Source: an uncultured Planktomarina sp.
GTDB taxonomy: Bacteria; Pseudomonadota; Alphaproteobacteria; Rhodobacterales; Rhodobacteraceae
Direction: 5' to 3'
Length of the DNA stretch: 64,000 nt
Assembly (NCBI GenBank): GCA_905182455.1
Contig: CAJJBJ010000009.1
Span: 1-64,000 of the forward strand
Part shown: in pieces, positions 38,098-60,657 of the stretch
How positions within the stretch are numbered: the first letter of the stretch is position 1
Layout: the number at the start of each line of letters is the position of its first letter
The notes under the pieces: generated by a model
Told to the model about the DNA's origin: nothing
The model's database searches: none
Seen by the model: only the letters and a program-made list of their open reading frames with translations
Position numbers and translations under genes: made by a program

Positions 38098-39206
38098 CGT
38101 TTGAAAGCTGGAAATTCGACTTTTTAATACGCGCCGCAGATGATGGGGTGCCAGCGTCAATTCTGAATCAAGTTTCTCCTTTTTTGATAGCCGCCACCGG
38201 TGTAGCGCAGGCTGATATGGTCCAGCCCGAAGCACGTAAAACCCTACAGCACTATGTTGAGCGGGCCGTCAGTGAAAAACGGGTGGCACAGGGGCGGATG
38301 TCCCTCGCGCAGCATGATGTGATTTTCGATCAAATTGAATCTGACTATCACGTGAACCGCCATGTCGTTGCGGCAATTTGGGGGATGGAATCCAACTACG
38401 GCAGCATACGAGGCGATGTTCCAGTGATTTCGGCTTTGGCCACATTGGCGGCTCAGGGCCGAAGGACCCCAATGTTTGAATCCCAACTTTTAGCAGCCTT
38501 TGAGATTGTCACCCGTGGCATCAAAACGCCAGAAAAAATGCTGGGAAGTTGGGCCGGGGCTATGGGGCACACGCAGTTTATGCCAAAATCCTATATCGAT
38601 TTTGCCGTCTCTGCCAACAATGGCCACCCCGATATTTGGGCCGAAGATCCAGCAGATGCTTTGGTTTCCACTGCCCATTTTTTGGTGTGTCACGGCTGGA
38701 AGGACGGCCTTCCTTGGGGGACGCCCACAAATGTCACTGAGACTGAAAATCGACACAGTTTGCGCCACCTTCCACCTCAGAGTCTCACCCATTGGAAGTC
38801 CCTTGGTGTTTTACCACAAAGAGCAGGTACTATGGATTATGAGGCGCGATTCATCTTACCCGGCGGCTTTGTTTCATTGGGTTTTGTCGTGTCTGAGAAT
38901 TTTGATGCCTTGCTGCGCTATAACAATGCAGCGGCTTATGCGATTGCCGTTGGCCATTTGGCCGATCGTCTACAAGGCGCACCGGCCCTCACGTTCCCAC
39001 CGGGCGGTGATGCACGCGGCTTAACACAGCTTGAAATGCAATTTGTGCAATCACGACTAACCGAGCTGGGCTTTGAAACCCTCGGGGCAGATGGGTTTTC
39101 CGGGCCTAATACCGAGATGGCCGTAGAGGCTTTTCAGGCCGCACTGGGTTTACCAGTAGATGGGTTTGTGGGACTGGCATTGTTGAGGCGTTTAGAGACG
39201 CTTTAA
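38094..39206 (+). CDS. Lytic murein transglycosylase (MltB-like) with PG-binding domain
   Basis: Protein of 370 residues. The transglycosylase domain (residues ~5-290) has the catalytic Glu in IWGMESNYGSIRGDVPVI and the MltB marker GSWAGAMGHTQFMPKSYIDF. The C-terminal peptidoglycan-binding repeat is at ~310-368 (VQSRLTELGFETLGADGFSG). The start overlaps the rnr stop (ATGA). No signal peptide can be seen, although the substrate is periplasmic; either the true start lies elsewhere, or the signal was lost. Confidence 0.83.
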   Translation: MTFESWKFDFLIRAADDGVPASILNQVSPFLIAATGVAQADMVQPEARKTLQHYVERAVSEKRVAQGRMSLAQHDVIFDQIESDYHVNRHVVAAIWGMESNYGSIRGDVPVISALATLAAQGRRTPMFESQLLAAFEIVTRGIKTPEKMLGSWAGAMGHTQFMPKSYIDFAVSANNGHPDIWAEDPADALVSTAHFLVCHGWKDGLPWGTPTNVTETENRHSLRHLPPQSLTHWKSLGVLPQRAGTMDYEARFILPGGFVSLGFVVSENFDALLRYNNAAAYAIAVGHLADRLQGAPALTFPPGGDARGLTQLEMQFVQSRLTELGFETLGADGFSGPNTEMAVEAFQAALGLPVDGFVGLALLRRLETL

Positions 39207-42200: not shown

Positions 42201-42265
42201 CAGGCCTGCAGTTCCGCCCAAGGGCGCTGCGGCTGTTGTAGGTGAATGACATCGGACAAAGGCAT
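39192..42265 (-). CDS. dnaE2: Error-prone DNA polymerase DnaE2, one frameshift
   Basis: SOS-inducible polymerase III alpha-type subunit of ~1024 residues used in mutagenic lesion bypass. The PHP domain begins with CSNFTFLTGGSHPEEYMDRA and LGLSAVAIADVNSVAG. The polymerase core shows QGRGSAANSVVCYCLGV, PDIDVDFEHERREEV (catalytic aspartates) and HLSQHVGGFIVTDG. A frame break lies near 42000, in the PHP domain. The ATG at 42265 is preferred; a GTG at 42292 is only 11 bases from the LexA box. imuA and imuB, its usual partners, are not next to it. It converges on the transglycosylase gene with a 15-base overlap. Confidence 0.9.
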
Positions 42266-42302
42266 AACGGCAAACCAAGTAAGTGATTCCACCCAGCACT
42301 TT

Positions 42303-42317
42303 GTTCACACTTTGTTC
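42303..42317 (-). promoter_or_regulatory. LexA (SOS) box of dnaE2
   Basis: GTTC-N7-GTTC, the exact alphaproteobacterial LexA consensus, 38 bases upstream of the dnaE2 ATG. It also lies 82 bases upstream of the divergent thiolase. Confidence 0.82.
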
Positions 42318-42398
42318 TAACGTTCAATTCTATTGTCGTTAGGTTTCGCTTTTCCTCGATTGCCAAGCCACATAGACTGCTCCAAAACGGAGGAAATC

Positions 42399-43573
42399 AT
42401 GACAGACATCGTAATTCTAGGCGGCGCCCGCACCGCAATTGGCACATTTGGTGGCAGCTTGGCAGGGGTCGCCCCCATCGATCTTGGCGCCATAGTGGCC
42501 AAAGCAGCCTTAGAGCGCGCTCAGGTTGAAGGCGGTCAAATTGGTCATGTGGCCTTTGGCCATGTCATCAACACCGAGCCGCGCGATATGTACCTATCAC
42601 GAGTTGCAGCGCTTCAGGCTGGAATTTCCGACAGCACGCCAGCGATGAATGTAAACCGCCTGTGCGGCTCAGGCTTGCAAGCCATCGTGTCGGTTGCACA
42701 ATCGCTGATGCTGGCGACGCTGAATTTGGATTGGCCGGTGGCGCAGAAAATATGAGCCGCTCTCCCTATATCATGCAATCGCAGCGGTGGGGCCAAAAGA
42801 TGGGTGACGTCAAAACGCTAGATATGATGCTGGGCGCGCTGCATTGCCCCTTTGGCACAGGCCATATGGGCATTACCGCAGAAAACGTGGCGCAAGAGAA
42901 TGCAGTGACACGGGCAGATCAAGACGCCTTCGCTCTTGAAAGCCAAAACCGAGCGGCGGCAGCCATCGCCGATGGCCACTTTGTGGATCAAATCACGCCA
43001 GTGTCGATCAAGGTCAAGCGCGACATGGTGGATTTCATCACAGACGAACACCCAAAAGCCACAAGCGCTGAGGTTTTGGCCGGGCTGCGCACCGTTTTTC
43101 AAAAAGATGGCACCGTGACGGCAGGCAACGCCTCGGGCATCAATGACGGGGCTGCGGCGATTGTTTTGGCCCGCGCCGATGCGGCCGAACGCGCGGGACT
43201 GACACCTAAGTTTCGTCTGCTCGGCTATGGCCACGCTGGCGTCCGCCCAGAAGTCATGGGGATTGGACCGGTTCCAGCCGTTGAAAATCTAATGGCGAAA
43301 ACAGGTATGTCGATTGGTGATTTCGATGTTGTGGAAAGCAACGAAGCTTTTGCGGCACAGGCCGTTGCCGTGAACCGAGGCCTTGGCCTAGATCCAGCAC
43401 GGGTGAACCCGAATGGCGGTGCCATTGCTTTGGGTCATCCGGTCGGAGCCACGGGCGCAATTATCATGGTGAAGTTAATGGCAGAACTGGAGCGCAGTGG
43501 CGGCAAAAGAGGGCTGGCCACTATGTGCATCGGCGGCGGTCAGGGGATCGCTGTGGCGATTGAACGGATTTAA
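42399..43573 (+). CDS. Acetyl-CoA C-acetyltransferase (PhaA-like), one frameshift
   Basis: Thiolase of ~391 residues that condenses two acetyl-CoA or cleaves beta-ketoacyl-CoA. Motifs: ILGGARTAIGTFGGSLAG, nucleophile NRLCGSGLQAIVS, NGGAIALGHPVGATGA (His) and CIGGGQGIAVAIERI (Cys). The frame breaks near 42712, between SLML and GDAEFGLAGGAENM. The start is an ATG preceded by CGGAGGAAATC. No phaB or phaC is adjacent. It is distinct in sequence from the thiolase at 1.6-2.75 kb. Confidence 0.86.
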
Positions 43574-43583
43574 TCTCCAGATA

Positions 43584-43611
43584 GGCGCCGCCTCCACACA
43601 AGGGCGGCGCC
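43584..43611. terminator. Bidirectional hairpin between thiolase and cytochrome c2
   Basis: GGCGCCGCC and GGCGGCGCC form a 9-bp GC-only stem between the two convergent stops. The T-run is weak. Confidence 0.6.
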
Positions 43612-43619
43612 CAGATTTA

Positions 43620-44064
43620 TTACTCAGCAGACAGGCTGAACAAATACGCATAAACATTGCGCGCATCTTCTTCATCCCGCACTTTATAGCTCATCTTTGC
43701 CCGGGCCTTTTTGTCATCCAAGAAGGTACGCAAAAAGCCTTTGGGGTCTTGAACATACGCCACAAAAGTTTCTTCATTCCAAATCAAACCATTTTCAGCA
43801 CCAGCGGTCACACATGGATTTACCGTAGCGGTAATCCTCAACCATGCCAGCACCCGCCCCTGCGATATTGTAGAGGTTTGGTCCAGATTTTCCGTTACGG
43901 CCCGCAAGCTTTTCGCCGTCATCATTCACAACAAGATGGCAGGCCACGCATTGCTTGCCAAACACGGCTTCACCGGCAACAGCATCGCCAGTCGCCGCAT
44001 GGCCACCGGCCAAAACCGGTGAGGCCAGCATAAGTGATAGGGCTGCAATTAAAGTATGTTTCAT
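43620..44064 (-). CDS. cycA: Cytochrome c2-like soluble cytochrome, one frameshift
   Basis: Periplasmic monohaem cytochrome of ~147 residues. The signal peptide ends near VLA (residue 19). The haem site is CVACH (C39, C42, H43), followed by SGPNLYNIAGAGAGMVEDYR and, after a frame break near 43815, AENGLIWNEETFVAYVQDP and the axial-Met region KARAKMSYKV. It carries electrons from the bc1 complex to oxidases. The missing or extra base is probably an error because both halves are intact. Confidence 0.85.
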
Positions 44065-44151
44065 TCTCAAGTTCCCTCTCGTTCCATTCTCCTGAGTTAG
44101 TCCATCGACAGACTCACTCAAGCCCTCAGCAAAAAAGATAATCGTTTCGTA

Positions 44152-45363
44152 TTAAGCTACGTCACGCGCCAGGGCGCATTGCTTCCACAGCTCAGACAGT
44201 GCGGACACAAGATGATCCACATCCGCATCTGTGTGAAGCGGCGAGGGTGTAAAGCGCAGACGCTCTGTCCCCTTTGGCACCGTTGGATAATTTATGGGCT
44301 GCACGTAAATGCCGAATTTATCCATCAGATAATCCGCCAGCATCTTGGTCTTCACAGCATCCTTGATCATGACAGGCACGATATGGCTGTCATTTTGCAA
44401 ATGTGGAATGCCAGCCCGGTCTAAGCCGGCACGCAGGCGGGCCACTTGGGCGCGCTGTCCCAAACGCTCAGCATCGCTGGTTTTGAGATGCGCAATCGAG
44501 GTGCGGGCCGCAGCCGCCACCGCGGGTGGTAATGCGGTTGTAAAAATGAAACCTGATCCAAAGGAGCGGATAAAATCACAAGTCGCTTCAGAGCCAGTGA
44601 TATAGCCACCGACGCAGCCAAATGCCTTACCCAACGTACCTTCAATGATATCGATCCTATGCGCCAAACCTTCGCGCTCGCTGATACCACCACCACGAGG
44701 GCCGTACATGCCAACCGCATGCACCTCATCAAGATAGGTCAGGGCACCGTGCTTTTCGCAAACATCCAAAATCGCAGCCATTGGCGCAATGTCCCCGTCC
44801 ATGGAATACACGCTCTCAAAAGCCACAAGCTTTGGGCGATCCCCACAGGCGGTTAATTTACGATCCAGATCTTCCACATCATTATGCGCCCAGATCATTT
44901 TTTCGGCTTTTGAATGGCGAATGCCTTCGATCATCGATGCGTGGTTTTCACTGTCAGAGAGGATCACAACATCTGGAATTTTTGCGCCCAAAGTGGTGAG
45001 TGTGGTCCAGTTGGACACATATCCCGAGGTGAACAAAAGTGCCGCTTCTTTGCCGTGCAAATCGGCCAATTCCTGCTCGAGCAACAAATGGTCATGATTG
45101 GTGCCACTGATATTACGCGTGCCACCCGCGCCAGTGCCACTACGACCCACGGCCTCTTGCATCGCCGCAATCACAGCTGGATGCTGTCCCATGCCCAAAT
45201 AATCATTGGAACACCAAACCGTCACATCGCGGGTTCCACCCTCAAAGTGATTGGTGGCACGAGGAAACTTCCCAGTACGACGTTCCAGATCGGCAAAATA
45301 CCGATAGTTGCCATCTTGTTTCAGCTGGTCGAGCTGATCTTTGAAAAAACTGTCAAACGACAT
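44152..45363 (-). CDS. hemA: 5-aminolevulinate synthase
   Basis: First enzyme of haem biosynthesis by the C4 (Shemin) route, condensing glycine with succinyl-CoA using PLP. The 403-residue protein has [55 protein letters not shown] and the PLP lysine in [14 protein letters not shown]. The ATG at 45363 gives the family start [15 protein letters not shown]; a longer frame upstream is not supported. Confidence 0.95.
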
Positions 45364-49444: not shown

Positions 49445-50023
49445 ATGTATCCTTTCATCCGTTTGGCGTGGCAATTTTTGCTGCACCGCAACGCCACATC
49501 TCTCTCAGTTGGTGAAACCCATCACAGCCAGCACTATTGTCTGCCGTGGGACTTGGACCTTTGGCTCGAGCTCAACAATGGCCGCACCTTGTCAATTTAC
49601 GATATGGGCCGCCTGCCGATGGCCAAACGATCAGGCTTGCTTGCCGCGTTGAGGCGCCGCGGTTGGGGATTGACCATAGCAGGCAGTTCGGTGCGCTATC
49701 GCAAACGCATCCGGGTGTTTGACAAAATTGAAATGCGCAGCCGGGCCATATGCGCTGATCACCGGTTCATTTATTTGGAACAAAGCATGTGGGTGCGTGG
49801 CACCTGCGCGGGTCATGCGCTCTATCGCACAGCCGTCACCAATGCCGATGGTATTGTATCAACTGATCACATTTTGGCCGAATTGGGCCCCGAGACAACA
49901 CTGCCCGAAATTCCCAATTGGGTAGAGGCTTGGATCACCGCCGAAGATTTGCGGCCATGGCCCCCAATGCAGTCAAATGCCCTTCTCAAAACAAGGAAAA
50001 CCCAAGCTACTGTTCATTTTTAG
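49445..50023 (+). CDS. Hotdog-fold thioesterase family protein
   Basis: Protein of 192 residues resembling acyl-CoA thioesterases of the 4HBT/'Them6-like' type: LWLELNNGRTLSIYDMGRLP, GLTIAGSSVRYRKRIRVFDK and FIYLEQSMWVRG. The catalytic residue and substrate are not certain. It was probably the gene upstream of the MFS transporter before the phototrophy island separated them. Confidence 0.8.
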   Translation: MYPFIRLAWQFLLHRNATSLSVGETHHSQHYCLPWDLDLWLELNNGRTLSIYDMGRLPMAKRSGLLAALRRRGWGLTIAGSSVRYRKRIRVFDKIEMRSRAICADHRFIYLEQSMWVRGTCAGHALYRTAVTNADGIVSTDHILAELGPETTLPEIPNWVEAWITAEDLRPWPPMQSNALLKTRKTQATVHF

Positions 50024-50110
50024 GACACTTAATCTCATTGTTGAGATGGCCGCATGAAGCTTACCTAGTTTTTGAGTGGATCACTTAAAAACACAGGTGA
50101 GAAGATCAAA

Positions 50111-50248
50111 ATGTTAGGCTCAATGGCAGTGGAACCAAGTCTTAAAAAACGCGTCCGCGGCTGGATGATGTTCGATTCGGCCACCCAACCCTTTTATCAG
50201 GAGCAGGTTGAAGGTTCGAATCCTGTCTGGGTCACCACCATAACTTGA
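50111..50248 (+). pseudogene. Truncated copy of MFS transporter 5' end
   Basis: The first 29 codons (50111-50197) repeat the start of the intact transporter at 58354-58440: 77 of 87 bases match, and 65 of 69 match from the seventh codon on (shared run AAAAAACGCGTCCGCGG). The bases just before the start (TCACTT, A-run) are also similar, so the repeat begins near 50080. Similarity ends at the same base, CTTTTAT, after which the left copy runs into a tRNA-like sequence and a stop. One change turns the conserved Trp (FDWATQP) into Ser. This is the left-edge scar of the phototrophy island. Confidence 0.88.
50204..50240 (+). other. tRNA 3'-end-like sequence at the island edge
   Basis: A T-loop TTCGAAT (50215-50221) is followed by a possible T-stem and acceptor 3' strand (CCTGTCTGGGTCA) and a CCACCA end. 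The 5' T-stem strand (GAAGG) pairs only partly, and there is no upstream half of a tRNA. It may be a degenerate attachment site; no integrase is present. Confidence 0.45.
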
Positions 50249-50477
50249 ATATCAAGATAGCTATGGAATACTTGATCTAATCTCGTTTTTCAGGGGCACT
50301 CCGAAGTCTCTAAAGGCCCCAGACCCTTAATTTTTATAATATAATCAGAGTTTATCAAAAGTCTGGGATTGACTTTTTCCAGGTCGCCGTTTGAGAGATC
50401 GCAATGCACACGCATAATTAGAATTGGTGAGTGAATAGAAAAAGAAAATTCTCAAATTCATCTCAACTCAATATTAG
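50249..50477. other. Non-coding stretch at island left edge
   Basis: About 230 AT-rich bases between the scar and the end of blh. Short inverted repeats are present (GGGGCC.../...GCCCC around 50294-50327; CCAGAC/GTCTGG at ~50325 and 50362). No clear terminator for the crt operon and no gene were found. Confidence 0.4.
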
Positions 50478-51353
50478 CTATACTTTAAAAGGCTGTTGGA
50501 TACGACGGAACATACCGTCAACTAAAATCATGTGGGGTACTGTAAGAGCTGCTAGTCCAATGAAAACTACTCTCAGTATAGCCTCATCAATTGTTTCTGC
50601 TGCAGATACTAACCAAAGTGAGAGGCCACCAGCGATCCAGCTTGCCAGGGTGAAAACCAAGGCCAACGTCAGCACCTTAGTCCGACCACGCCCATCTTCA
50701 CTAATTGCATGCCAAACCCTGGCTAGATGGCGTGGCGTGTGAACCCCACAAAAGTATAGCGAAAATCCAACCAGTGGTGGTAATAGTCCAAACGCAATTG
50801 CTAAAACAGCAAGCTCAGCAAACCTTACCCGTAGTTTCGGCCGCAAGTAAGCTAGAATAAAATAAGAGGTCAAAACTCCCACCATTACATATCCACAGAC
50901 TACAATTATCAGCTGCAAGAATACGCTCTTTTCGCCGATGAGCTTGTCAAAAATTAGCTCAACTTCACTCCAATTTAGCAAGCTGATCAATATCACGACT
51001 GTTCCACCGTGGGCAATGATTTGGATCCCCCGCTGCACCAGACTGCCTGGTTGGCTGTCACCTAAGCCAAAATGTAATATGCTTATGCCTAAAAAAATTA
51101 TAAGCGACAGTTCCGGAAACTCTAACCAAAAAAGAACCACTAGGGCTGCTATAGAAAGGTAGCTGACCATAAACACGAGCATGGACTTTAAGTCCTTGCC
51201 ATAACCGAGTGCCAGTGCGACAGCGCCGTCAAAAGCCCCATGAGGCAAACCTATAATAACAATTGCAGCCAAAGCGATAAGCGACAGCAGGTCAAACCCC
51301 AAGACACTGGCGACTGCTCCCACCGAATTGGTTATATCAAAATCATTAGTCAC
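50478..51353 (-). CDS. blh: Beta-carotene 15,15'-dioxygenase (Blh/Brp)
   Basis: Membrane enzyme of 291 residues that cleaves beta-carotene into two retinals, the chromophore of the rhodopsin. About eight membrane helices carry the conserved histidines: GLPHGAFDG (H38), ILHFGLGDSQ, HGG and GVHTPRHLARVWH. Last gene of the crt operon; its start overlaps the crtY stop by four bases. Confidence 0.93.
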   Translation of the reverse strand: MTNDFDITNSVGAVASVLGFDLLSLIALAAIVIIGLPHGAFDGAVALALGYGKDLKSMLVFMVSYLSIAALVVLFWLEFPELSLIIFLGISILHFGLGDSQPGSLVQRGIQIIAHGGTVVILISLLNWSEVELIFDKLIGEKSVFLQLIIVVCGYVMVGVLTSYFILAYLRPKLRVRFAELAVLAIAFGLLPPLVGFSLYFCGVHTPRHLARVWHAISEDGRGRTKVLTLALVFTLASWIAGGLSLWLVSAAETIDEAILRVVFIGLAALTVPHMILVDGMFRRIQQPFKV

Positions 51354-52456
51354 GGCTCGCCCTCATCCGGCCTTAGAAGAGCTCTAATAAATGGTAACGA
51401 CGGCATAGCCGCAACCACTTTAGCGCGCAGTGAAATATTGGCCTCACCACTTAAAAAGCGTGCGAATTCGTCCCCGGTCAAGCTGCCAGCAAGGGCTGTG
51501 AAAATTTTTGGGGCATAACGTGGCTGATATCGCAGGACAGATAAGAAGATCTTATCCATCCAAAGGTCTATTGGTTTATGTGGCGTTGCAAATTGCAACA
51601 TATGACCGTCAGACACATGCTTAAGAGCTGTATCAATCTGTTTTTGAATGAAGCTGAATGCGTATCCGCTGGATGGCCTGATAGCACCACCATTGGCGCC
51701 AATTCCCTGAAAATCTGGGTCATGACGCTTCATGACACCAAGAGGGATTGCGCCTTGCTCACGGCGCAAAAGGTTAAAACGTGAAACGCCGGCATGTTTT
51801 TTCAACCAACTTGAAATCGCTGTTTCATAAAATTCATTAGTTTCCAGAGTGGGTGAAAACAGCGTTGATTCGACCAATGCCTCCCGATCTGAGAAAGGCA
51901 GGCAATAAATAAAATGCATTCCACGAGACTGATCGCAGCGAAAATCCATCAAAATAGCTGTACTGTCGTCAAAACTGCCTGGTTCGGCACAAATTTCCCA
52001 ACCAATAAAATGTTGCAACATCATATTTGGCTCTCGCCGTGGTGGACGGCTGTCGAAAACCTGCTTTGGTGAAAGCGTGGCAAGCTGGGTCATATCCTCA
52101 TGGAAAAAAACGTCATTTTCTTGTGCTCGAGCATTACAATGCTCAAGCCAGCTTCTACGTGTTATAGCGTGGTAAGGATAAGCATCGGCATGCATAATCA
52201 CTTCAGTGTCAGCGTTTCTGACTGCCCATTTGTGCCATGTCTTGCGGGCGAGGGGCACTGCGTCTTGCAGCCAATCCATTTCCCAAAATCCCCAGATATG
52301 ATCTTGATCCGACTTGTGTACCTCAGGCGCAATTACATGTAGCTGTTTACCTGACAATAGATTGATATTGGCAGCCAGCGACAGCGCGGCACAACCACCG
52401 CCCAAAACAGCAATCTTAGTTGGCTGCTTTATTATATCATTTGGTTCACCCGACAT
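51350..52456 (-). CDS. crtY: Lycopene beta-cyclase
   Basis: FAD/NAD(P)-binding enzyme of 368 residues that cyclises both ends of lycopene to beta-carotene. The N-terminal dinucleotide motif is IAVLGGGCAALSLAANINLL. Other CrtY features are HIWGFWEMDWLQDAV, FIYCLPFSDREALVESTLFS and the REQGAIPLG region. The ATG at 52456 overlaps the end of crtB by 11 bases. Confidence 0.93.
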   Translation of the reverse strand: MSGEPNDIIKQPTKIAVLGGGCAALSLAANINLLSGKQLHVIAPEVHKSDQDHIWGFWEMDWLQDAVPLARKTWHKWAVRNADTEVIMHADAYPYHAITRRSWLEHCNARAQENDVFFHEDMTQLATLSPKQVFDSRPPRREPNMMLQHFIGWEICAEPGSFDDSTAILMDFRCDQSRGMHFIYCLPFSDREALVESTLFSPTLETNEFYETAISSWLKKHAGVSRFNLLRREQGAIPLGVMKRHDPDFQGIGANGGAIRPSSGYAFSFIQKQIDTALKHVSDGHMLQFATPHKPIDLWMDKIFLSVLRYQPRYAPKIFTALAGSLTGDEFARFLSGEANISLRAKVVAAMPSLPFIRALLRPDEGEP

Positions 52457-53360
52457 AAGGGAGACCAATCAAAGGGGCATGCAGCATGGCAGCGTGCTGT
52501 GGCGCAGCATACCAACGGTCAGACAAGCGGCGAACAGCCTTCACGGAGCAAGCAAATTTTACCGTTTGGCTTGTAACTTCCCGGCCTGCATACCAACGGC
52601 ACCCCTTCGCAGATACTTGCAGTCCAATTTGGCGGTAAACTTGCCCAGCCACAGAAATTGCCAAATGTGCTCGCGCTGGGAGATAGACTAAGCCCGCCGT
52701 TCCACTTTCATAGTAGGTCTCAGCGAGTTGAAGTAACTGTGACACGGCCTCTGAAACCATCGCTCGCTCAGGAGATTCAACTGAGGCACCAGCCGCCAAT
52801 ATTTGAACTGGTGACATGTTATTGACCCAATTACCCGGCAGATATCGCCGCCCCATTAGTGCATCCTCATGTACATCACGGGCAATATTAGTCAGTTGCA
52901 TTGCAATGCCAAGATCAATCGCATGTGCAAGCGCTAACCTATCGTTGCAGCCCAAAATATTGCACATCATTAGACCAACGGTTCCAGCCACCCGGTAAGC
53001 GTAGCGCAGCAACGCGGCTTCGTCCGCCAAAGCCACCTCGTTTTGATCTTGAAGCAGGCCATCTATGAGCGCGACCAAAACCTCGGCAGAAATATTGTTT
53101 TGGTTTATAAAGGCTCCCAGGTTGGCAAGTATCGGGTCTTTGTCATACATTTGGTCAAGCAAACCAACGCGGATGTTAACCAACCGGTCCGGTCCATCCG
53201 CAATGTCACCATCGGCCATATCGTCTAAAATACGACAAAAACTGTATAGTTGAGCTGCGTCTTTACCAATCCTCACGCCTAGAAAGCGAGATGCCCAATG
53301 AAAGCTTTTTCCATTCTGGGCCAAGGAGAGTTCTGGACTTAGATTCTCACTAGAACTCAT
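52446..53360 (-). CDS. crtB: Phytoene synthase
   Basis: Condenses two geranylgeranyl-PP to phytoene. The 304-residue protein has the first Asp-rich motif DDMAD (in FCRILDDMADGD), the second in NIARDVHEDALMGRRYLPGN, and AAGTVGL-like YRVAGTVGLMM. The ATG at 53360 has a good ribosome site (GGGAGGT, 8-base spacing); an upstream in-frame ATG at 53384 overlaps crtI and is less likely. Confidence 0.94.
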   Translation of the reverse strand: MSSSENLSPELSLAQNGKSFHWASRFLGVRIGKDAAQLYSFCRILDDMADGDIADGPDRLVNIRVGLLDQMYDKDPILANLGAFINQNNISAEVLVALIDGLLQDQNEVALADEAALLRYAYRVAGTVGLMMCNILGCNDRLALAHAIDLGIAMQLTNIARDVHEDALMGRRYLPGNWVNNMSPVQILAAGASVESPERAMVSEAVSQLLQLAETYYESGTAGLVYLPARAHLAISVAGQVYRQIGLQVSAKGCRWYAGREVTSQTVKFACSVKAVRRLSDRWYAAPQHAAMLHAPLIGLPYVG

Positions 53361-53380
53361 ACAGTCGCACCTCCCACATA

Positions 53381-54913
53381 TCACTTACTTTCTTGAATTT
53401 CTTCATCAATCAAGGCTTCAACGACTTTAGCCGAACACAGAACCCCAGGCATTCCCGCCCCCGGGTGCGCGCCCGCAGCAGCAAAATACAAGTTTGGAAT
53501 ATGAGGGTCACGGTTGTGATACCTAAACCATGCAGATTGTGTGAAGAGTGGTGCGATCGAAAAGCCAGCCCCATGCATTGAGCGATAGTTTGTCTTGAAA
53601 TCTTCAGGTGTCATCCAAAAATCATCGCTGATGATATTTTCGAGATCAGGCATGATTGTGTTAGACAGGGCAGCCACTATGCGGTCGCGTAATTGAGGGC
53701 CCTTTTCATCCCAATCAATTTTTCCACGCAGATTTGGTACAGGACAAAGCACATAAAAGCTATCACATCCCGCAGGCGCAAAACTATCATCTGTCGCTGT
53801 TGGGCGGTGTACATAAAGCGAAAAATCGTCCGCTAGTATTTTTTTGTCAAAAATATCCGCAAGTAGTTCTTTATATCGAGGGCCCATCCAGATTGTATGG
53901 TGTGCAATTTTGGGATATTGTCGCTTGGTACCAAAAAACAACACGAAAAGCCCCATCGAATATTGTGTCATTCGATCGGAAGCCAACCGCTTGCGGCGGT
54001 TACCGTCCGCAGGCAACATTTGAGCATAGACCGTTGGTGGATCACCATTGCAAATGACCCGATCTGCCAAAAATACTCGGCCACTTTCTGAAATTGCGCC
54101 GGTCGCACGGCCCTTTTCAAGGGTGATCTCAGCTATATCAATGCCAAGTTCCACCTGAACGCCAGCCTTTAATAACAAAGTGTGGAGCGCTGAAACAAGA
54201 CGTCCCGTACCCCCCATACAAAAATATACACCCCACCGGCGCTCAAGATAATGAATGAGAGCATAGATGGAGGTCGTCGTAAAAGGATTGCCGCCCACAA
54301 GTAGTGGATGGATTGAAAACGCCTGCCGCAAAAGTGGGTGTTTCAGGTGCCGATTCACAATACCTGCTACCGAATAATAACTTTTCAAGCGAAGTAAGCT
54401 GGGGATTTGGGCCAGCATAGTTCTTACTCTATGGAAGGGCCTATCAGCCAACTTTTCAAACCCGACATCAAAAATGGCTTTAGAAGTTTTCAACAGCTTC
54501 GCGTAGCCTTCAACGTCAGCTGGTTCAAATTTCCGTATTTCATCATTAGTATCTTCAATTGAGCGGCGGTAATCAAACTGTCGCCCACCGTGGAAATAAA
54601 ACCTATACCATGGATCAAGTGACCGAAACTCAACATGGTCACTGCGCCTCTCTCCAAAAAGCTCAAATAGTTCATCAAATAAAAACGGAGCTGTGATTAC
54701 AGTCGGTCCAGCATCATGACGAAATCCCCCACGCTCAAAAACCTGCGCGCGCCCACCGATTGCCTGCAAACGGTCAACCAATGTGACTTCGAAACCCTTG
54801 GCACGCATTCGCAGGGCTACTGCAATCCCACCAAAGCCTGCTCCGATAACCAGAACCCTTCCCGGCATAGACTGATCAGCCTTGCCAGGGTCACAACTTT
54901 TTTGTTTTTTCAT
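53381..54913 (-). CDS. crtI: Phytoene desaturase (lycopene-forming)
   Basis: FAD-dependent desaturase of 510 residues. The dinucleotide motif is VLVIGAGFGGIAVALRM. Typical CrtI segments follow: GGRAQVFERGGFRHDAGPT, GGNPFTTTSIYALIHYLER, YFCMGGTGRLVSAL and, at the C-terminus, NLYFAAAGAHPGAGMPGVL. It converts phytoene to lycopene in several steps. Eleven bases after crtE. Confidence 0.94.
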   Translation of the reverse strand: MKKQKSCDPGKADQSMPGRVLVIGAGFGGIAVALRMRAKGFEVTLVDRLQAIGGRAQVFERGGFRHDAGPTVITAPFLFDELFELFGERRSDHVEFRSLDPWYRFYFHGGRQFDYRRSIEDTNDEIRKFEPADVEGYAKLLKTSKAIFDVGFEKLADRPFHRVRTMLAQIPSLLRLKSYYSVAGIVNRHLKHPLLRQAFSIHPLLVGGNPFTTTSIYALIHYLERRWGVYFCMGGTGRLVSALHTLLLKAGVQVELGIDIAEITLEKGRATGAISESGRVFLADRVICNGDPPTVYAQMLPADGNRRKRLASDRMTQYSMGLFVLFFGTKRQYPKIAHHTIWMGPRYKELLADIFDKKILADDFSLYVHRPTATDDSFAPAGCDSFYVLCPVPNLRGKIDWDEKGPQLRDRIVAALSNTIMPDLENIISDDFWMTPEDFKTNYRSMHGAGFSIAPLFTQSAWFRYHNRDPHIPNLYFAAAGAHPGAGMPGVLCSAKVVEALIDEEIQESK

Positions 54914-54924
54914 AATCACTCTAT

Positions 54925-55965
54925 TTAGGAGGGGGGGGTCAACGAATCTGTTGGCGCAACCGACTCTAGACAAACTTGTTTTAAAAGAGCTTGAACTGGA
55001 GATACGGCCTCACTCAAACCTGACGGAAGATCCTTCCCTGCCCTTGTAGCTTTATTGAAAGCTCGGTGCATCTGTTGAATGCTCTGCGTCATGGCGCCCG
55101 AATTCAGGATATCTTGTTTCCAAAAACCTAAGTCGGCTTTTGCACCTGAAGCGCTCCAATAATCAAACGCTGCTCCTTGATCAGCAGACAAATTTTGACG
55201 ATAAAGTACTATAACTGCATTTGGAGCGCGCCGGGCTAGGTCTGAGCCACAATCTGCAGCACCATCTAACGCACGAAAATTTAATATGTCATTGGCCATT
55301 TGATAGGCTGCACCAAGATTTCGAAAGTAAGACTTAAGCGCGGTGGCAGCACTTGCGTGAAGTGCCATTGCGGCCACACCCTCCATTGGGGCAGTCAACA
55401 GTGGAGCAGTTTTATCCGATGCGATTTCCATATAGGAATCCCAGGAGAAGACCCCACAATTCGAAAACTCTGCTGCCTCACCCCTTGTTGTAGTCGCCAT
55501 GTGTTGCGCTAGAATTTTTACTAACAGTGGAGTCTGTGACCTTTGTCCTGCTTCAGCCGCAAGTTCAAATGCTAGAGAAATCAACCAATCCCCAAGCGTC
55601 AGTGCTACGTTGCGCCCATACTTAAACCAAACCGAGGGCCGTCCTCGACGGAATTGGTCACCATCACAAATGTCATCGTGTATAAGAGAGGCATTGTGGA
55701 GTATTTCAACAGCTACGGCCCAATGTAGAGCAGCCGCCTGATCAATTTTTAGTACTTTTGCTGCGCTGAGCGCCATTTTAGCTCGCAGCATCTTTCCTGA
55801 GACATCAAAGTGATGATGGGCCGCTTCTGATAATGGAGTATTAGGTTTTGGCAATCTTTCTATAATAAATCTGCGAAGTATCTCTGTGGAATGAATTTTA
55901 GTTTCAATAGGGTCATTACCCTCGATCACTGCATTAGTCTCACCAATATCCTGAGGTTTTCCCAT
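54925..55965 (-). CDS. crtE: Polyprenyl (geranylgeranyl) diphosphate synthase
   Basis: Head-to-tail prenyltransferase of 346 residues, expected to make geranylgeranyl-PP. The first Asp-rich motif is good: LIHDDICDGDQFRRGRPSVW. The second is unusual: AYQMANDILNFRALDG has N-D-x-x-N where D-D-x-x-D is expected, and the usual basic segment after it is changed too. It is the first gene of crtEIBY-blh. Confidence 0.87.
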   Translation of the reverse strand: MGKPQDIGETNAVIEGNDPIETKIHSTEILRRFIIERLPKPNTPLSEAAHHHFDVSGKMLRAKMALSAAKVLKIDQAAALHWAVAVEILHNASLIHDDICDGDQFRRGRPSVWFKYGRNVALTLGDWLISLAFELAAEAGQRSQTPLLVKILAQHMATTTRGEAAEFSNCGVFSWDSYMEIASDKTAPLLTAPMEGVAAMALHASAATALKSYFRNLGAAYQMANDILNFRALDGAADCGSDLARRAPNAVIVLYRQNLSADQGAAFDYWSASGAKADLGFWKQDILNSGAMTQSIQQMHRAFNKATRAGKDLPSGLSEAVSPVQALLKQVCLESVAPTDSLTPPS

Positions 55966-56005
55966 TACTCGTACATCCTCGAATAAAGATATATCATTTT
56001 AATAC

Positions 56006-56034
56006 AAAAACGAGGTGGCCGATTGGCCACCTCG
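56006..56034 (-). terminator. Terminator downstream of proteorhodopsin
   Basis: CGAGGTGGCC and GGCCACCTCG form a perfect 10-bp stem with a 4-base loop, followed on the minus strand by TTTTT. It lies between the rhodopsin stop (56046) and crtE (55965), so crt expression needs read-through or its own promoter. Confidence 0.9.
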
Positions 56035-56045
56035 TTACGACCTGT

Positions 56046-56828
56046 TTAGGACGTTTTTTCAGATTCTGTAACGGCAACGTTCCAGATGATTACGCCAAAC
56101 GCAATCTTGTTAACCACATCCGCGAGGTTGTAGATAATGTTCAAAGCGTTTGATGCTTCTTCTGGGCCCGCACCTGTGAAGTAACCCATGAAATAGCCAA
56201 TTGGGTAAATTGCCCAACCGATGGTCACGATCCAACGCATTGTTACGAAAGCAGATTGCACCGATGGAGGAGCTTTTTCAGCTGCAACTTTCCCTGCTTC
56301 ACCAAAGAAGATTTCATATAGGATGTAGGCCCAGCCGACCATACCGACGATAAATCCCAACATTGCATTTATGTAACCAGCTTCGCCCATGTAGCCGCCG
56401 ACCAACATTACCATCGTACCGATCATCAAGCGCCAGAAAATTCCGCCAGAAACATTTGTGATTGCACGCAAGATAAGATAAAATTCTACCATCAAGAGTG
56501 GAACCGTGATCAGCCAGTCAATGTAACGGTAAACCAGTGGAGTTTCTCCGGTCGCCACCCAAACGTCGCGCATGTAGAAATAGTGAACTGCAGCGACCAA
56601 TGTTACCAAGCCTGAAACTGTGAGCGATGTTTTCCACTTACCTGAAACACGTTGAGTTTCCATGAAGAAGAATGCTGTTGCAGCAACCAAAGCCATCGAT
56701 ATTAACCAGAACGAAATACCGACAAAATCATCTGCCGCTAGATTGGCACTTGCCGAGGCTAAGGACGGTGCAGCGATTAATCCCACTGTAGCCATCATAA
56801 TTTTTATTTTACTATAGATGTTTCTCAT
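56046..56828 (-). CDS. Green-absorbing proteorhodopsin
   Basis: Light-driven proton pump of 260 residues with a cleavable signal peptide (end near ASA) and seven membrane helices. Key residues by this numbering, with GPR numbering in brackets: H82 (75), proton acceptor D104 (97) in RYIDWLITVP, tuning residue L112 (105), proton donor E115 (108) in LLMVEFYLIL, and the retinal lysine K241 (231) in YNLADVVNKIAFG. Leu at the tuning site predicts green absorption. The ribosome site is GGGAGAGAAGAA. No DUF or kinase partner is attached. Confidence 0.97.
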   Translation of the reverse strand: MRNIYSKIKIMMATVGLIAAPSLASASANLAADDFVGISFWLISMALVAATAFFFMETQRVSGKWKTSLTVSGLVTLVAAVHYFYMRDVWVATGETPLVYRYIDWLITVPLLMVEFYLILRAITNVSGGIFWRLMIGTMVMLVGGYMGEAGYINAMLGFIVGMVGWAYILYEIFFGEAGKVAAEKAPPSVQSAFVTMRWIVTIGWAIYPIGYFMGYFTGAGPEEASNALNIIYNLADVVNKIAFGVIIWNVAVTESEKTS

Positions 56829-56862
56829 TTCTTCTCTCCCTAAAGTCAGCCCTCTGTAGACC

Positions 56863-56878
56863 GTACACTATGGTGTAC
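56863..56878. promoter_or_regulatory. Inverted repeat upstream of proteorhodopsin
   Basis: GTACAC-N4-GTGTAC, perfect 6-bp arms, 34-50 bases upstream of the proteorhodopsin start. It could be an operator or a leader hairpin. No regulator is known for it. Confidence 0.4.
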
Positions 56879-57395
56879 CGAACAGGCAAAATTTCAACGC
56901 CATATTCTACAAATATACTTGTTAAGTGCTGTAACCAAATGATTAAGACAAAAATTACGTAACGTTACTAACAAAACTCAGTGGATACCGGCACTTTCGT
57001 CGGCCCGTTCCCAAACATATTTCCGCATAAAAAAGAAATTAGGAAGTTTTAACCACATAAAAAACCACATTCAGACCGTAAATCGTGGGCCGTGACATCT
57101 ACCCCTGCAAGAGCAATGAAATGAAGCTAATTCAGCCAGTGTATGATTCTGGAAAGCTCCACAGTCGATGCATAGTTGGTAATGTTGTATAACCAGACAA
57201 TTAACGCAGCCCCAATCTTTTAAAGCAGAGATAACTTTCACTTAGCCTTTTTGTTTATGGGCTTTGAGAATGACTTAGAATTTTGCTGATGGCTAGTCAT
57301 GTCTATGACAATAGATATTTTTACGTAAGAGAGATGCAAGGGCATTAAGCAGGCCAATGGTAGTAGACCTAGGTTCAATACATAAATATGAAAAA
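56879..57395. other. AT-rich non-coding region upstream of proteorhodopsin
   Basis: About 520 bases without a convincing reading frame. It should contain the rhodopsin promoter; a palindromic TACGTAACGTTA lies near 56959. Nothing else recognised. Confidence 0.45.
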
Positions 57396-57426
57396 GACCA
57401 ATCCCTTTTTCTCAAAGGGATTGGTC
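57396..57426 (-). terminator. Strong hairpin with T-run
   Basis: GACCAATCCCTTT and AAAGGGATTGGTC form a perfect 13-bp stem with a 5-base loop. On the minus strand it is followed by TTTTTC, so it ends a minus-strand transcript coming from 57.4-57.6 kb. The only candidate gene there is the small ORF at 57468-57578. Confidence 0.8.
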
Positions 57427-57467
57427 AAGTAGGGAAATTGGTATGCTAGCAAGCATTACCGAATTTT

Positions 57468-57578
57468 TTAAATAATACGGATGCGCTCGAGTTCAAGACA
57501 GTGCCCGCAATTAGGGTTACAGCTAGTCGAAACCTTGGGAAAAGCCTCAGTGAAGTCGTTCAAACTGACAGACGCCAC
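57468..57578 (-). CDS. Possible small cysteine-rich peptide gene
   Basis: A 36-codon frame from GTG at 57578 to TAA at 57468, 42 bases before the strong terminator. The peptide has the hydrophilic segment SLNDFTEAFPKVST and a compact C-N-P-N-C-G-H-C cluster near its C-terminus, suggestive of a metal-binding or modified peptide. No good ribosome site is seen and no family is recognised. A chance frame of this length is quite possible. Confidence 0.3.
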   Translation of the reverse strand: MASVSLNDFTEAFPKVSTSCNPNCGHCLELERIRII

Positions 57579-57765
57579 AAGTTTGGGCTATTTGACAAAG
57601 TGTATTTTATTGGCACATCCTGACTGAACCGATAAATATTAGTAACAGTAATACACTATTAAATAACTGAAAATTGTTTTAATAATAAGAAATATATTAA
57701 TGATATTGCAACTAGATAATGACGGGTTAAACGAAAAAGATTTAGACAGGTAATTACAAAAATTT

Positions 57766-57870
57766 AGCCAATCCGACGCTGGAGGCCAAAATTGTATCAC
57801 TGTGATTGAAGTAGGGGCTACGGCCTGCGATGTGGCCAGTAGTTTCAACATCATCAGCGTAAGGCCAAAC
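57766..57870 (+). pseudogene. IS66-like orfA relic
   Basis: Three frames together recover the helix-turn-helix pattern of IS66-type OrfA proteins: IRRW in one, TLEAKIVSL in the next and EVGATACDVASSFNI in the third. The element is decayed (at least two frame breaks) and its ends and larger transposase are missing. It hints that insertion-sequence activity accompanied the island. Confidence 0.45.
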
Positions 57871-58046
57871 GCAACAATAGGTATCAAATCGTCTGAAAAG
57901 GCAGCTCAAATATTGTTTTTGGGGGTTGTCCATGCTGGACCTAATAGTTATCTAGATGCTAGATGGGTACAGCAATGCTCGACATACTAGCCGTATATTG
58001 CATTGAACAACTTGATGACAGAACATTTTGCAAAAGGACTTCAGTA

Positions 58047-58175
58047 ATGGCGCTTCTGGAAATTGGAGTTGGTGTTTTTATGTCTGCTATTATGCTCGCA
58101 GTTCTTTTCTTAATTGTAAAATTGATAAGGGACACTAGGGCAACTATGAAAAAACAAAATGACCAAAAAGATTAA
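58047..58175 (+). CDS. Small single-helix membrane protein
   Basis: A 42-residue protein: MALLEIGVG, one hydrophobic helix (FMSAIMLAVLFLIVKLI) and a basic tail (RATMKKQNDQ). AAAGGACTTCAGTA before the ATG is a credible ribosome site. No family recognised. It faces away from proteorhodopsin and toward the transporter. Confidence 0.5.
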   Translation: MALLEIGVGVFMSAIMLAVLFLIVKLIRDTRATMKKQNDQKD

Positions 58176-58353
58176 TTGTAGACCAAAACAGCAGTCACAA
58201 CCGCGCACCTAACAGAGCGATAATTTGATGGGTAAAACTAATGAAAACATGCATCCAATTACAGGCCTAACCTAACTTTTTGCGCTCAACGGTCGACGCA
58301 GCTGCGATACTAGAGATTAAGCATTGTCACTTCAAAAAATGCGGAGATCTAGA

Positions 58354-59739
58354 GTGTTGGACGCAATCACAGTGGAGCCAAGTCTCAAAAAACGCGTCCG
58401 CGGTTGGATGATGTTCGATTGGGCCACCCAACCCTTTTATACGCTAGGTCTTACCTTCATTTTCGGCCCTTATTTCGCAAGTGTATCGGCTGAGTATTTT
58501 TTCAACACCGGCCTTGATCAAGCCAGCGCCAATGCCAGCGCGCAAACCATTTGGTCTTGGGGACAAGCGGTGGCAGGTCTATTTGTTGCTGTCATTGGGA
58601 TTTTGGCAGGCTCCTACGCTGATAGCACCGGACGCCGAATGCCGTGGCTTTGGGCCGCCTCAATCGTCTTTGTGATTTGCTCATGGAGGCTTTGGTACAT
58701 GGTGCCAGATGGTTCTGCCATGTGGTCTTCGCTCATTCTATTCTCCGTGGCTTTCGTGGCAGTGGAATTGGCTTTGGTGTTCACAAACGCAGTCCTGCCC
58801 AGCCTTGGAGATCGCCGCGAAGTCGGTGAAATTTCAGGCAATGGCGTGGCTTTGGGTTATGCAGGTGGGATTTTAAGCCTGTTCATCATGCTGTTTTTCT
58901 TCTTCGATGAGGGTGGTAAAACCTTCGCGATCGGCCTTGAGCCAGGGTTTGGACTGCTTGATCCAGAAGCCCGCGAAGGCACCCGCGCAGTGGGGCCACT
59001 GATCGCAGTTTGGTTTATGATCTTTATGGTACCTTACTTCATGTGGGTCCGGGAAGGGAAAACTCCAAACACACAGGGCGGGTTTCGCCAATCTATGGCC
59101 GAATTAAAATTATCGCTTCAAGGTATGGTCAAACGCCCAAGCCTATTTGCCTTCATGGGCGCTCAAATGCTTTACCGGGATGCACTAAATGGACTTTATG
59201 CCTTTGGTGGCATCTATGCGGTATTGGTGCTCGGCTGGGGGCAAACACAGCTTGGTATTTTCGGCATAATAAGTGGCATCTCAGCTGCACTGGTCACTTG
59301 GATCTCGGGGAAATATGACCGCAAGCTTGGGCCACTTCCTGTCATCTACTTCCACATTTTTGTGCTCATCATTGTGTCCCTCTGCATCATAGGCATGTCG
59401 CGCAGCAGCTTTTACGGGTTGGGCTTGGCCGAAGGCTCAACCCTGCCCGATGTGCTGTTTTACGTCTGCGGCGCGGCCATCGGTGGATCTGGTGGGGGGA
59501 TCTATTCAGCCAGTCGTTCGATGATGGTACGCCACACGAATCCAGCCCGTCCAACCGAGGCCTTTGGCCTCTTTGCCCTTGCCGGCAAAGCTACCGCATT
59601 TCTGGCACCACTGCTTATTGGGATATTTACCTATTGGCTGAATGATGCTCGTTTAGGCTTTGCACCAGTTGTGGGGCTGTTCATTCTGGGCATGCTGCTG
59701 CTACGTTGGGTACATCCAGAAGGAGATCAAGCTGAGTGA
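58354..59739 (+). CDS. MFS transporter, UMF1 (Atg22-like) family
   Basis: Membrane carrier of 461 residues with about eleven or twelve helices. The family mark is the N-terminal WMMFDWATQPFYTLGLTFIF and the loop GSYADSTGRRMPWLW. The substrate is not known. The start is set at GTG 58354 by comparison with the duplicated fragment at 50111, which begins with ATG; GGAG lies 8 bases upstream. The gene marks the right edge of the phototrophy island and is coupled (GTGA) to mepA. Confidence 0.87.
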   Translation: MLDAITVEPSLKKRVRGWMMFDWATQPFYTLGLTFIFGPYFASVSAEYFFNTGLDQASANASAQTIWSWGQAVAGLFVAVIGILAGSYADSTGRRMPWLWAASIVFVICSWRLWYMVPDGSAMWSSLILFSVAFVAVELALVFTNAVLPSLGDRREVGEISGNGVALGYAGGILSLFIMLFFFFDEGGKTFAIGLEPGFGLLDPEAREGTRAVGPLIAVWFMIFMVPYFMWVREGKTPNTQGGFRQSMAELKLSLQGMVKRPSLFAFMGAQMLYRDALNGLYAFGGIYAVLVLGWGQTQLGIFGIISGISAALVTWISGKYDRKLGPLPVIYFHIFVLIIVSLCIIGMSRSSFYGLGLAEGSTLPDVLFYVCGAAIGGSGGGIYSASRSMMVRHTNPARPTEAFGLFALAGKATAFLAPLLIGIFTYWLNDARLGFAPVVGLFILGMLLLRWVHPEGDQAE

Positions 59740-60657
59740 GACGCCTCCTCTATACCGGTACCTTAGCTCTCGCCCTTTTGATGGGCAGCTTGCCCAATGG
59801 GCTAATCGCACAAACGCGAGCGGATAAGCCGCAGTCCCGTGCAAGCCTTGTGGCGCAAACCCCAGCGAAGGAACTTTTTGGCGCGGCCCAATTTGCCTCG
59901 CAGCAACGACCACAATCTTTTGGCGGATATGCTAAGGGCTGTTTGGCTGGAGGCGCTGCATTGCCAGAAACTGGCCTCACATGGCAGGCCATGCGTCTGT
60001 CGCGCAACAGAAATTGGGGCCAGCCCATCACCAGTTGACTACCTGCAAGATCTCTCTCGCAAAGTGGCACAAAACACCGCTTGGTCTGGGCTATATATCG
60101 GCGACATATCGCAGCCGCGTGGTGGACCCATGTTATCAGGCCATGCCAGCCATCAAATTGGCCTTGATGCCGACATTTGGCTCCTGCCCAAAACGGATAA
60201 AGTCCTGACACGGGCTGAACGGGAAAAAGTTTCCTCAATCTCTATGCGCCGCGCGTCAGGGGCCTATACCAATGACCGTTGGACCAGAGATCATGAAAAA
60301 GTGCTGAAGCTTGCGGCCTCCGATTCCCGTGTCGCACGCATTTTTCTATTTCCGGGCGCGAAGGTCGCAATGTGCAAATCCGCGACGGGCGACAGATCTT
60401 GGCTGCGTAAAATTCGGCCTTGGTACGGGCATCACTATCACTTTCACGTACGCTTAAAATGCCCCAAAGGCCAAAGCGCTTGCGTTGATCAAGCGCCGCC
60501 ACCTTCAGGGGACGGGTGCAAGGAAGCCGTCAATTGGGTGAAACAAATCTTAAACCCGCCGCCACCCAATCCAAACGCCAAGCCTCGCAAACCAAAACCG
60601 CCGATCACCCTTGCGCGGTTGCCACAGCAATGTACCGAGGTCTTATCCGCCCTGTAA
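59736..60657 (+). CDS. mepA: Penicillin-insensitive murein endopeptidase, one frameshift
   Basis: Periplasmic LAS-type metallopeptidase of ~306 residues cutting D-Ala-mDAP cross-links. It begins with a signal peptide (TGTLALALLMGSLPNGLIAQ). After a break near 60030 (LSRNRNWGQP, then PVDYLQDLSRKVAQN in another frame) come the zinc ligands GGPMLSGHASHQIGLDADIW and WYGHHYHFHVRLKCP. GTG start overlapping the MFS stop. Confidence 0.88.

Follow-up and report, generated by a model that had tools for sequence, protein, structure and literature searches.

A laterally acquired proteorhodopsin operon between two starts of a UMF1 transporter gene in an uncultured Planktomarina

Integration close to the start of a host gene is known from SXT-type elements, which insert at the 5′ end of prfC; the insertion interrupts the gene close to its beginning, and the element supplies a new start that restores it. 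Here we analyze a 64-kb stretch of DNA from an uncultured Planktomarina sp. (in the following, the window) in which a proteorhodopsin operon is located between a truncated and an intact start of a gene for a UMF1-type MFS transporter. As at prfC, the gene appears to be cut near its start and rebuilt, but the insert is devoid of mobility genes. A further related class are the tRNA-associated islands integrated by a tyrosine integrase. The window is similar to these in that the 3′ half of a tRNA is found at one border and that integrase-type genes lie by the same tRNA in three relatives. It differs in that the insert has neither an integrase nor a second attachment repeat nor an adjoining intact target tRNA.

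The layout closest to that of the window comes from Escherichia coli. In the sections of that study used here, a linearised plasmid with homology at one end gave the signature of a duplication by polymerase chain reaction in 56 of 60 selected clones, and the duplicated homologous stretch measured 109-950 bp in 14 sequenced clones (PMC3240628). The authors explain this by a single crossover with a circle which had lost part of the homologous stretch. Common to both cases are an incomplete and a complete homologous copy around foreign DNA; the E. coli work, however, is a laboratory plasmid system whereas the window shows the end product alone.

For the operon itself, the main text parts of a study on the RCA (Roseobacter clade affiliated) cluster describe one operon type and one proteorhodopsin clade, mobile elements near the proteorhodopsin gene and a base composition unlike that of the host; a site analysis is not among them (PMC10675870). 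The version in the window branches outside the six other operons of the genus and sits at UMF1. A survey of the literature on Planktomarina and Roseobacter proteorhodopsin, islands, tRNA, horizontal gene transfer and integrases gave no title or abstract start that describes this junction. The kind of event is already known. New details are the xenologous operon and the composite tRNA/UMF1 border.

The empty site and the operon tree

The window forms the beginning of contig C9 (120 kb); the genome, 95.8% complete, measures 2.12 Mb in 11 contigs. We compared it with 19 relatives of the genus (Planktomarina in the GTDB sense), which are labelled G0xx. The operon has the order PR-crtE-crtI-crtB-crtY-blh (PR, proteorhodopsin) and covers 6.35 kb of the minus strand (50478-56828). 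Its lateral acquisition is indicated by an empty site in the relatives, by an operon tree which is not host-like and by a composite left border.

At the site of the insert the resident neighbors are a 4HBT_2 thioesterase on the left (49445-50023, plus strand, Pfam E = 3.7e-14) and mepA on the right (Peptidase_M74; 59839-60657, plus strand, Pfam E = 9.4e-77). Thioesterase, UMF1 and mepA are found together without an insert in 17 of the 19 relatives, although the thioesterase is broken, yet in place, in G017. In the remaining two, the contig ends inside the UMF1 start (G013) or no match to UMF1 is present (G003). Four loci from other genera all have mepA after UMF1, and two of them have the thioesterase before it. 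A reading made earlier from the sequence alone had proposed an insertion of the cluster at the start of a resident UMF1 gene, with thioesterase and mepA as the original neighbors; the contiguity in the 17 relatives agrees with both proposals. This sequence-only reading had also named two observations which would speak against it. Neither was made: the operon is absent from the UMF1 site in all 17 relatives in which the site is assembled, and no free-standing UMF1 start fragment resembling the left copy was found among 60 other genomes that were searched with UMF1 as query. The short pieces of UMF1 start listed in that search are the contig end of G013, a gap of Ns in G005 and a gene split in place in G028. 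In G013, two contigs (L057 and L058) have exactly 55 bases of the UMF1 start in common; here, the assembly branches within the stretch that also carries the junction of the window. A second full-length UMF1, 77-78% identical to that of the window, occurs in G001 and G016 (L046:11926-13296 and L062:1297-2664).

For the operon tree six proteins were joined (17 rows, 2025 columns). The window operon falls outside the six other operons of the genus, as their sister, with a support of 100/100, and a tree which holds it with G005, G017 and G018 (the clade G000+G005+G017+G018) is rejected by the approximately unbiased (AU) test (p-AU 8.6e-5). The protein identities give the same picture. Blh, CrtY, CrtB and CrtE of the window are 54-65% identical to those of G005, G017 and G018, which share 70-94% among themselves; for RecQ, the window is 94-96% identical to these three genomes. 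CrtI is 82-87% identical to CrtI of the six other operons. The latter split into the groups {G005, G017, G018} and {G007, G014, G016}. In the core tree G007, G014 and G016 form one clade together with G009 (100/100) and G005 pairs with G018 (100/100), whereas the placement of G017 and of the window is poor. So the operons appear to parallel their hosts broadly, except in the window. Since the operon tree conflicts with the nearest core-gene relatives, we regard the window operon, as judged from these alignments, as a xenolog. The intact UMF1 gene next to it groups with G005 and G018 (96/91).

Proteorhodopsin is present elsewhere in the genome in 7 of the 19 relatives. According to gene names read from the translations, the operons of G005, G018, G016 and G014 lie beside ABC1-type (ABC1-kinase-type) and photolyase-type genes and that of G017 beside type II secretion-type genes; the operon of G007 runs off its contig at one end. 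In G008 a broken proteorhodopsin (L070:9659-10431) is located 2-3 kb from tRNA-Arg(TCT) and tRNA-Leu(GAG) and there are no crt genes within the 19.9 kb that were fetched. The phototrophy operon of G008 is apparently in loss. We searched the genome of the window for an earlier operon site by means of two neighbors of the G005 operon. For the ABC1-type gene this gave only a relative of 27% identity, and for the amine-oxidase-type gene none; a loss of an earlier operon from this genome is unproved. In the plasmid set, 8 records match proteorhodopsin, every one below 60% identity.

Left and right of the insert, the window aligns collinearly with G017. Over positions 36501-45000, the identity to G017 is mostly 91-97% (89% in one 500-base tile), against 70-89% in the other matching tiles. 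Homologous recombination between the lineages of the window and G017 seems to have produced this tract. We considered it as a part of the insertion event but set this aside, as some 5 kb lie between the tract and the insert.

The borders of the insert

The left UMF1 start (50111-50197, plus strand) comprises 29 codons, with Trp replaced by Ser at codon 23, and then reads into unrelated DNA. The right one (58354-59739, plus strand) is intact, a frame of 461 codons with a GTG start at 58354 and matches to ATG22 (E = 4e-28) and MFS_1 (E = 1.8e-12) in Pfam. Between 50111-50197 and 58354-58440, 77 of 87 bases are identical, and a repeat finder returned 50112-50197/58355-58440 at 90%. The shared sequence stops at CTTTTAT on both sides, followed by C in the left and A in the right copy. 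A search of the whole genome (E ≤ 0.001) located the UMF1 start at these two places only, the second with E = 7.8e-27. What had first been noticed from the sequence alone, two UMF1 starts which flank a minus-strand phototrophy cluster and match up to the same base, is thus confirmed by alignment and repeat finder. The two copies are closer to each other than to the compared relatives, and the peptide VEPSLKKRVRG is common to both. Several changes in the left copy, among them that of the conserved Trp (codon 23), have a derived look, which suggests that this copy is now free of constraint.

Just one base past the truncated copy, the sequence continues as the 3′ half of a tRNA-Arg(CCT), which reaches from where the anticodon loop ends to the CCA (50199-50237) and then includes CCA (feature 50199-50240, plus strand); it matches the intact tRNA-Arg(CCT) of relatives at up to 36 of 39 bases. 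It is followed by a segment of 72 bp, here called D (50238-50309, plus strand), which is shared with G008 where it lies just downstream of the tRNA-Arg(CCT). Together these 111 bp (50199-50309) are identical at 105 positions (95%) to G008 L090:17728-17618, compared with 86% for the RecQ proteins of the two genomes. Segment D is present in one of the 19 relatives, G008, and was not found beyond the window's own genome among 394 genomes of the family, a set with two members of this genus and without G008. The T-arm of the fragment is GCAGG/CCTGC as in G008, G011 and G014, whereas G005, G017 and G018 have GGTGG/CCACC. Because the T-arm type is not that of these three genomes, the DNA of the left border probably originates from outside the immediate clade. 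The tRNA half with its 72 bp and the xenolog status of the operon had been missed by the sequence-only reading.

In G008 the intact tRNA-Arg(CCT) is flanked on its other side by a gene for a tyrosine integrase of 541 amino acids (Phage_integrase in Pfam). Divergent integrase-type genes (541-548 amino acids) are found just upstream of tRNA-Arg(CCT) in G008, G011 and G004 (L090, L095 and L096), the integrase of G008 being 42% identical to those of the other two. This suggests that tRNA-Arg(CCT) may be a hotspot of integration. In G008, a gene identified as hemY-type from its translation (L090:16223-17690) is short and frame-broken where D and the tRNA join it. We considered that D might be ordinary spacer between tRNA-Arg and hemY. 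We rejected this, as the hemY-type frame is open over 483-540 codons in 11 of the 12 cases listed and broken in G008 alone.

Sequence searches did not reveal a second copy of tRNA-Arg(CCT) in the assembly; the contig of the window begins about 7 kb to the right of the position which the tRNA has in G005. ARAGORN reports no complete tRNA in the window, and Rfam gave one chance-level snoRNA match between 49.0 and 59.5 kb, the tRNA half being undetected. In viral contigs, segment D, blh and the UMF1 start were without a match to exact or back-translated patterns. The phage set has no match to 50199-50480, and in the plasmid set the tRNA part alone was matched, in two Tritonibacter records. Between D and blh there is a non-coding piece (50310-50477) without a match in the 19 relatives (E ≤ 0.01), in 393 other genomes of the family (E ≤ 0.001) or in the phage and plasmid sets, nor when translated against 243 loci below E = 0.05.

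On the right, an AT-rich stretch of about 1.5 kb (56829-58323; 39% guanine plus cytosine, GC) separates proteorhodopsin from UMF1. Two of its pieces are similar to DNA found elsewhere in the genus: 58021-58159 is 83% identical to another place in G017 (G017:C1:28797-28934) and the 58 bases 58232-58289 are 74-81% identical to intergenic DNA of G017, G004 and G009. A small membrane open reading frame (58047-58175, plus strand) inside the first piece gave the sole match below E = 0.5 in the translated comparison with the 243 loci, and none of the 7 short reading frames of the stretch belongs to a Pfam family at the curated cut-off. Because two pieces of the stretch before it resemble genus DNA from other places, the upstream region of the intact UMF1 gene appears to be newly acquired, while the truncated copy is still joined to the resident thioesterase.

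We also compared the 80 bp that precede each of the two starts. No control out of 184 scores as well against the left upstream region and one out of 184 against the right, with controls that were partly drawn from the relatives' own UMF1 loci. In permissive scoring, 0 and 0 of 1000 shuffles are as good for the longer stretch and 6 and 1 for the shorter; scoring anchored at the start gives p = 0.001. Two stricter scorings are less favorable, with 186 and 473 of 1000 shuffles as good for the longer and 84 and 150 for the shorter stretch. There is thus moderate evidence from these scores for a real relation of the upstream regions. We hold it at moderate because 58232-58289 also resembles other intergenic DNA and because of the origin of the controls. 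The likeness of the upstream regions is only that seen between different species groups, whereas the coding parts are 89% alike.

How the operon may have entered

We suggest that 50.2-58.35 kb was acquired laterally when a foreign circularised molecule carrying a UMF1 start integrated by a single crossover; we give this proposal as a whole about even odds (roughly 0.5). The foreign molecule would have carried, in this order, a broken tRNA-Arg(CCT), segment D, the operon, 1.5 kb of further DNA and codons 1-29 of a related UMF1 gene. It would circularise and then cross over once within the shared UMF1 start. On the left, this would leave the resident upstream region with a truncated UMF1 start, and on the right a UMF1 gene rebuilt with the incoming upstream region. 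While the acquisition is read from the locus itself, the single crossover is inferred: a homologous stretch is duplicated around foreign DNA and one copy is incomplete, as expected for this type of integration. Since the layout equals that of the duplications described in the cited parts of PMC3240628, we count these in its favor. We lean toward the view that the two starts may have diverged in two lineages before they were joined, rather than arisen by one duplication.

According to the sequence-only reading, some 90-110 bp at the start of one resident gene became duplicated through the insertion itself, and decay of the left copy came later. Of this, the insertion at the UMF1 start stands, whereas a duplication with simple decay is not established, and we consider it rather improbable. 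The close similarity of the two copies with their common peptide fits such an event, and so does the apparent concentration of derived changes, the lost Trp among them, in the left copy. Yet the differences do not seem to be distributed as expected from neutral decay. Within codons 7-29 three of four are synonymous (P = 0.023), albeit in a post hoc test, and over all nine differing codons after the start 4 of 9 (P = 0.084). A recent duplication followed by neutral decay should moreover result in equal divergence upstream and in the coding part, unless the coding part alone was copied; the upstream parts, although apparently related, are far more diverged. A length of 90 bp is also long for a target-site duplication, and no transposase or integrase family is present in the scanned parts of the insert. 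An insertion sequence or transposon likewise finds no support, with no transposase family in the scanned parts and 0 of 9 inverted-repeat pairs at the two borders.

It is also unlikely, we think, that the operon rode on a tyrosine-integrase element associated with tRNA-Arg(CCT), for which the UMF1 start served as secondary attachment site with the gene being rebuilt, even though the junction is placed at the end of the anticodon loop and an integrase-type gene of 541-548 amino acids adjoins the same tRNA in G008, G011 and G004. Neither the six operon genes nor the 7 short reading frames encode an integrase (Pfam), and the non-coding stretches have no translated similarity to the integrase loci. 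The sole relative of the G008 integrase in the genome of the window (E ≤ 1e-5) is 25% identical and resides on another contig (C7). Further, the tRNA half is present at one end only, a search of the window that allowed up to 3 mismatches having given a single copy, and CTTTTAT in UMF1 and CTCCTAA in the loop share 4 of 7 bases. Less likely again is homology-facilitated illegitimate recombination of a linear donor, in which the right side would come from homologous exchange in UMF1 and the left side from an illegitimate join at codon 29. For this process, a combination of a homologous with a non-homologous border is indeed known from the portions of PMC3240628 and PMC5361080 drawn on here. Its usual product, as given in the former, is however a deletion in the recipient with 3-10 bp of microhomology, and the window instead has an overlap and no clear microhomology. 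Finally, the insert could be an artefact of metagenome assembly, as the genome is incomplete, in 11 contigs, and shares a 95% identical piece with G008. This would be very surprising, since collinearity of the contig with G017 extends to either side of the insert and the longest exact shared words, 19 bases between the UMF1 starts and 39 bases with G008, are below the 55-base overlap seen in the assembly of one relative, whose method may differ from that used here.

Several observations weigh against integration of a foreign circle by single crossover, or against the foreign origin on which it builds. A donor with the proposed arrangement was not found: we examined 88 proteorhodopsin loci (two are contigs that occur twice; 80 are the best 80 of 587), and UMF1 is absent from their fetched flanks of up to 10 kb. 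In the comparison of the left upstream region with G005, 11 of 184 controls score as well, so that its resident character is weakly supported. The sequence of the junction does not distinguish end-joining from the action of an integrase. As to the tree, the group in the AU test was picked after the identities had been seen, the host clade G000+G005+G017+G018 has a weak support of 60/6 with a P. temperata-like group close by, and a deep paralogue kept in this lineage alone would also give the same tree.

A more far-reaching idea is that the UMF1 start is, in this genus, a recurring landing site for a phototrophy cassette with a hybrid end, the tRNA-Arg(CCT) 3′ half beside a UMF1 start. Such a cassette would excise and re-integrate with an integrase supplied in trans, the transporter would obtain a new promoter each time and operons would be swapped between species. 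The assembly break of G013 in the same stretch of UMF1 is a possible second sign of such a site. We regard this idea as speculative and quite improbable.

Operon genes, composition and meaning

Open reading frame translations and Pfam show the operon to be complete, with all six genes open on one strand. Starting from UMF1, the minus strand encodes proteorhodopsin (56046-56828; Bac_rhodopsin, E = 2.3e-47), the geranylgeranyl pyrophosphate synthase CrtE (54925-55965; polyprenyl_synt, 1.5e-42), the phytoene desaturase CrtI (53381-54973; Amino_oxidase, 7.6e-32), the phytoene synthase CrtB (52446-53384; SQS_PSY, 4.5e-49), the lycopene cyclase CrtY (51350-52468; Lycopene_cycl, 3.7e-40) and the β-carotene 15,15′-dioxygenase Blh (50478-51353; BCD, 4.7e-54). 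The functional roles of the pump residues, the retinal lysine and the green-tuning position in rhodopsins we take to be those generally assumed. The rhodopsin aligns with the solved green proteorhodopsin 8cqc at E = 2.2e-88 and retains the pump residues, RYIDWLITVPLLMVE and the retinal lysine; a leucine occupies the green-tuning position. It is thus predicted to be a green-tuned protein of the proton-pump type. CrtE, CrtI, CrtB and CrtY together with Blh would supply retinal, and the rhodopsin would pump protons under light.

The insert is AT-richer than its surroundings, as had been remarked before from the sequence alone. Its GC content is 45.3% (50198-58353) compared with 53.1% and 53.2% in the flanks, and GC at third codon positions is 37-48% compared with 52-59% in nine neighboring genes. 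In six relatives, the operons at their own places have 41.6-45.6% GC and the UMF1 loci of those hosts 42.6-51.0%. Because the operons of the relatives have a similar GC content, the AT-richness is largely a trait of this operon family and provides no date for the insertion.

The gain and exchange of proteorhodopsin in abundant ocean bacteria is usually inferred from trees alone, whereas here both borders and the empty site can be read. The window received a distinct version of the operon, and the scar DNA that accompanies it is akin to DNA of another species of the genus. In this sample, the window operon would fit as the outermost branch of the proteorhodopsin clade described in the main text parts of PMC10675870. 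The locus adds detail to the picture of a single clade and a single type given there, and its junctions are concrete targets for metagenomes.

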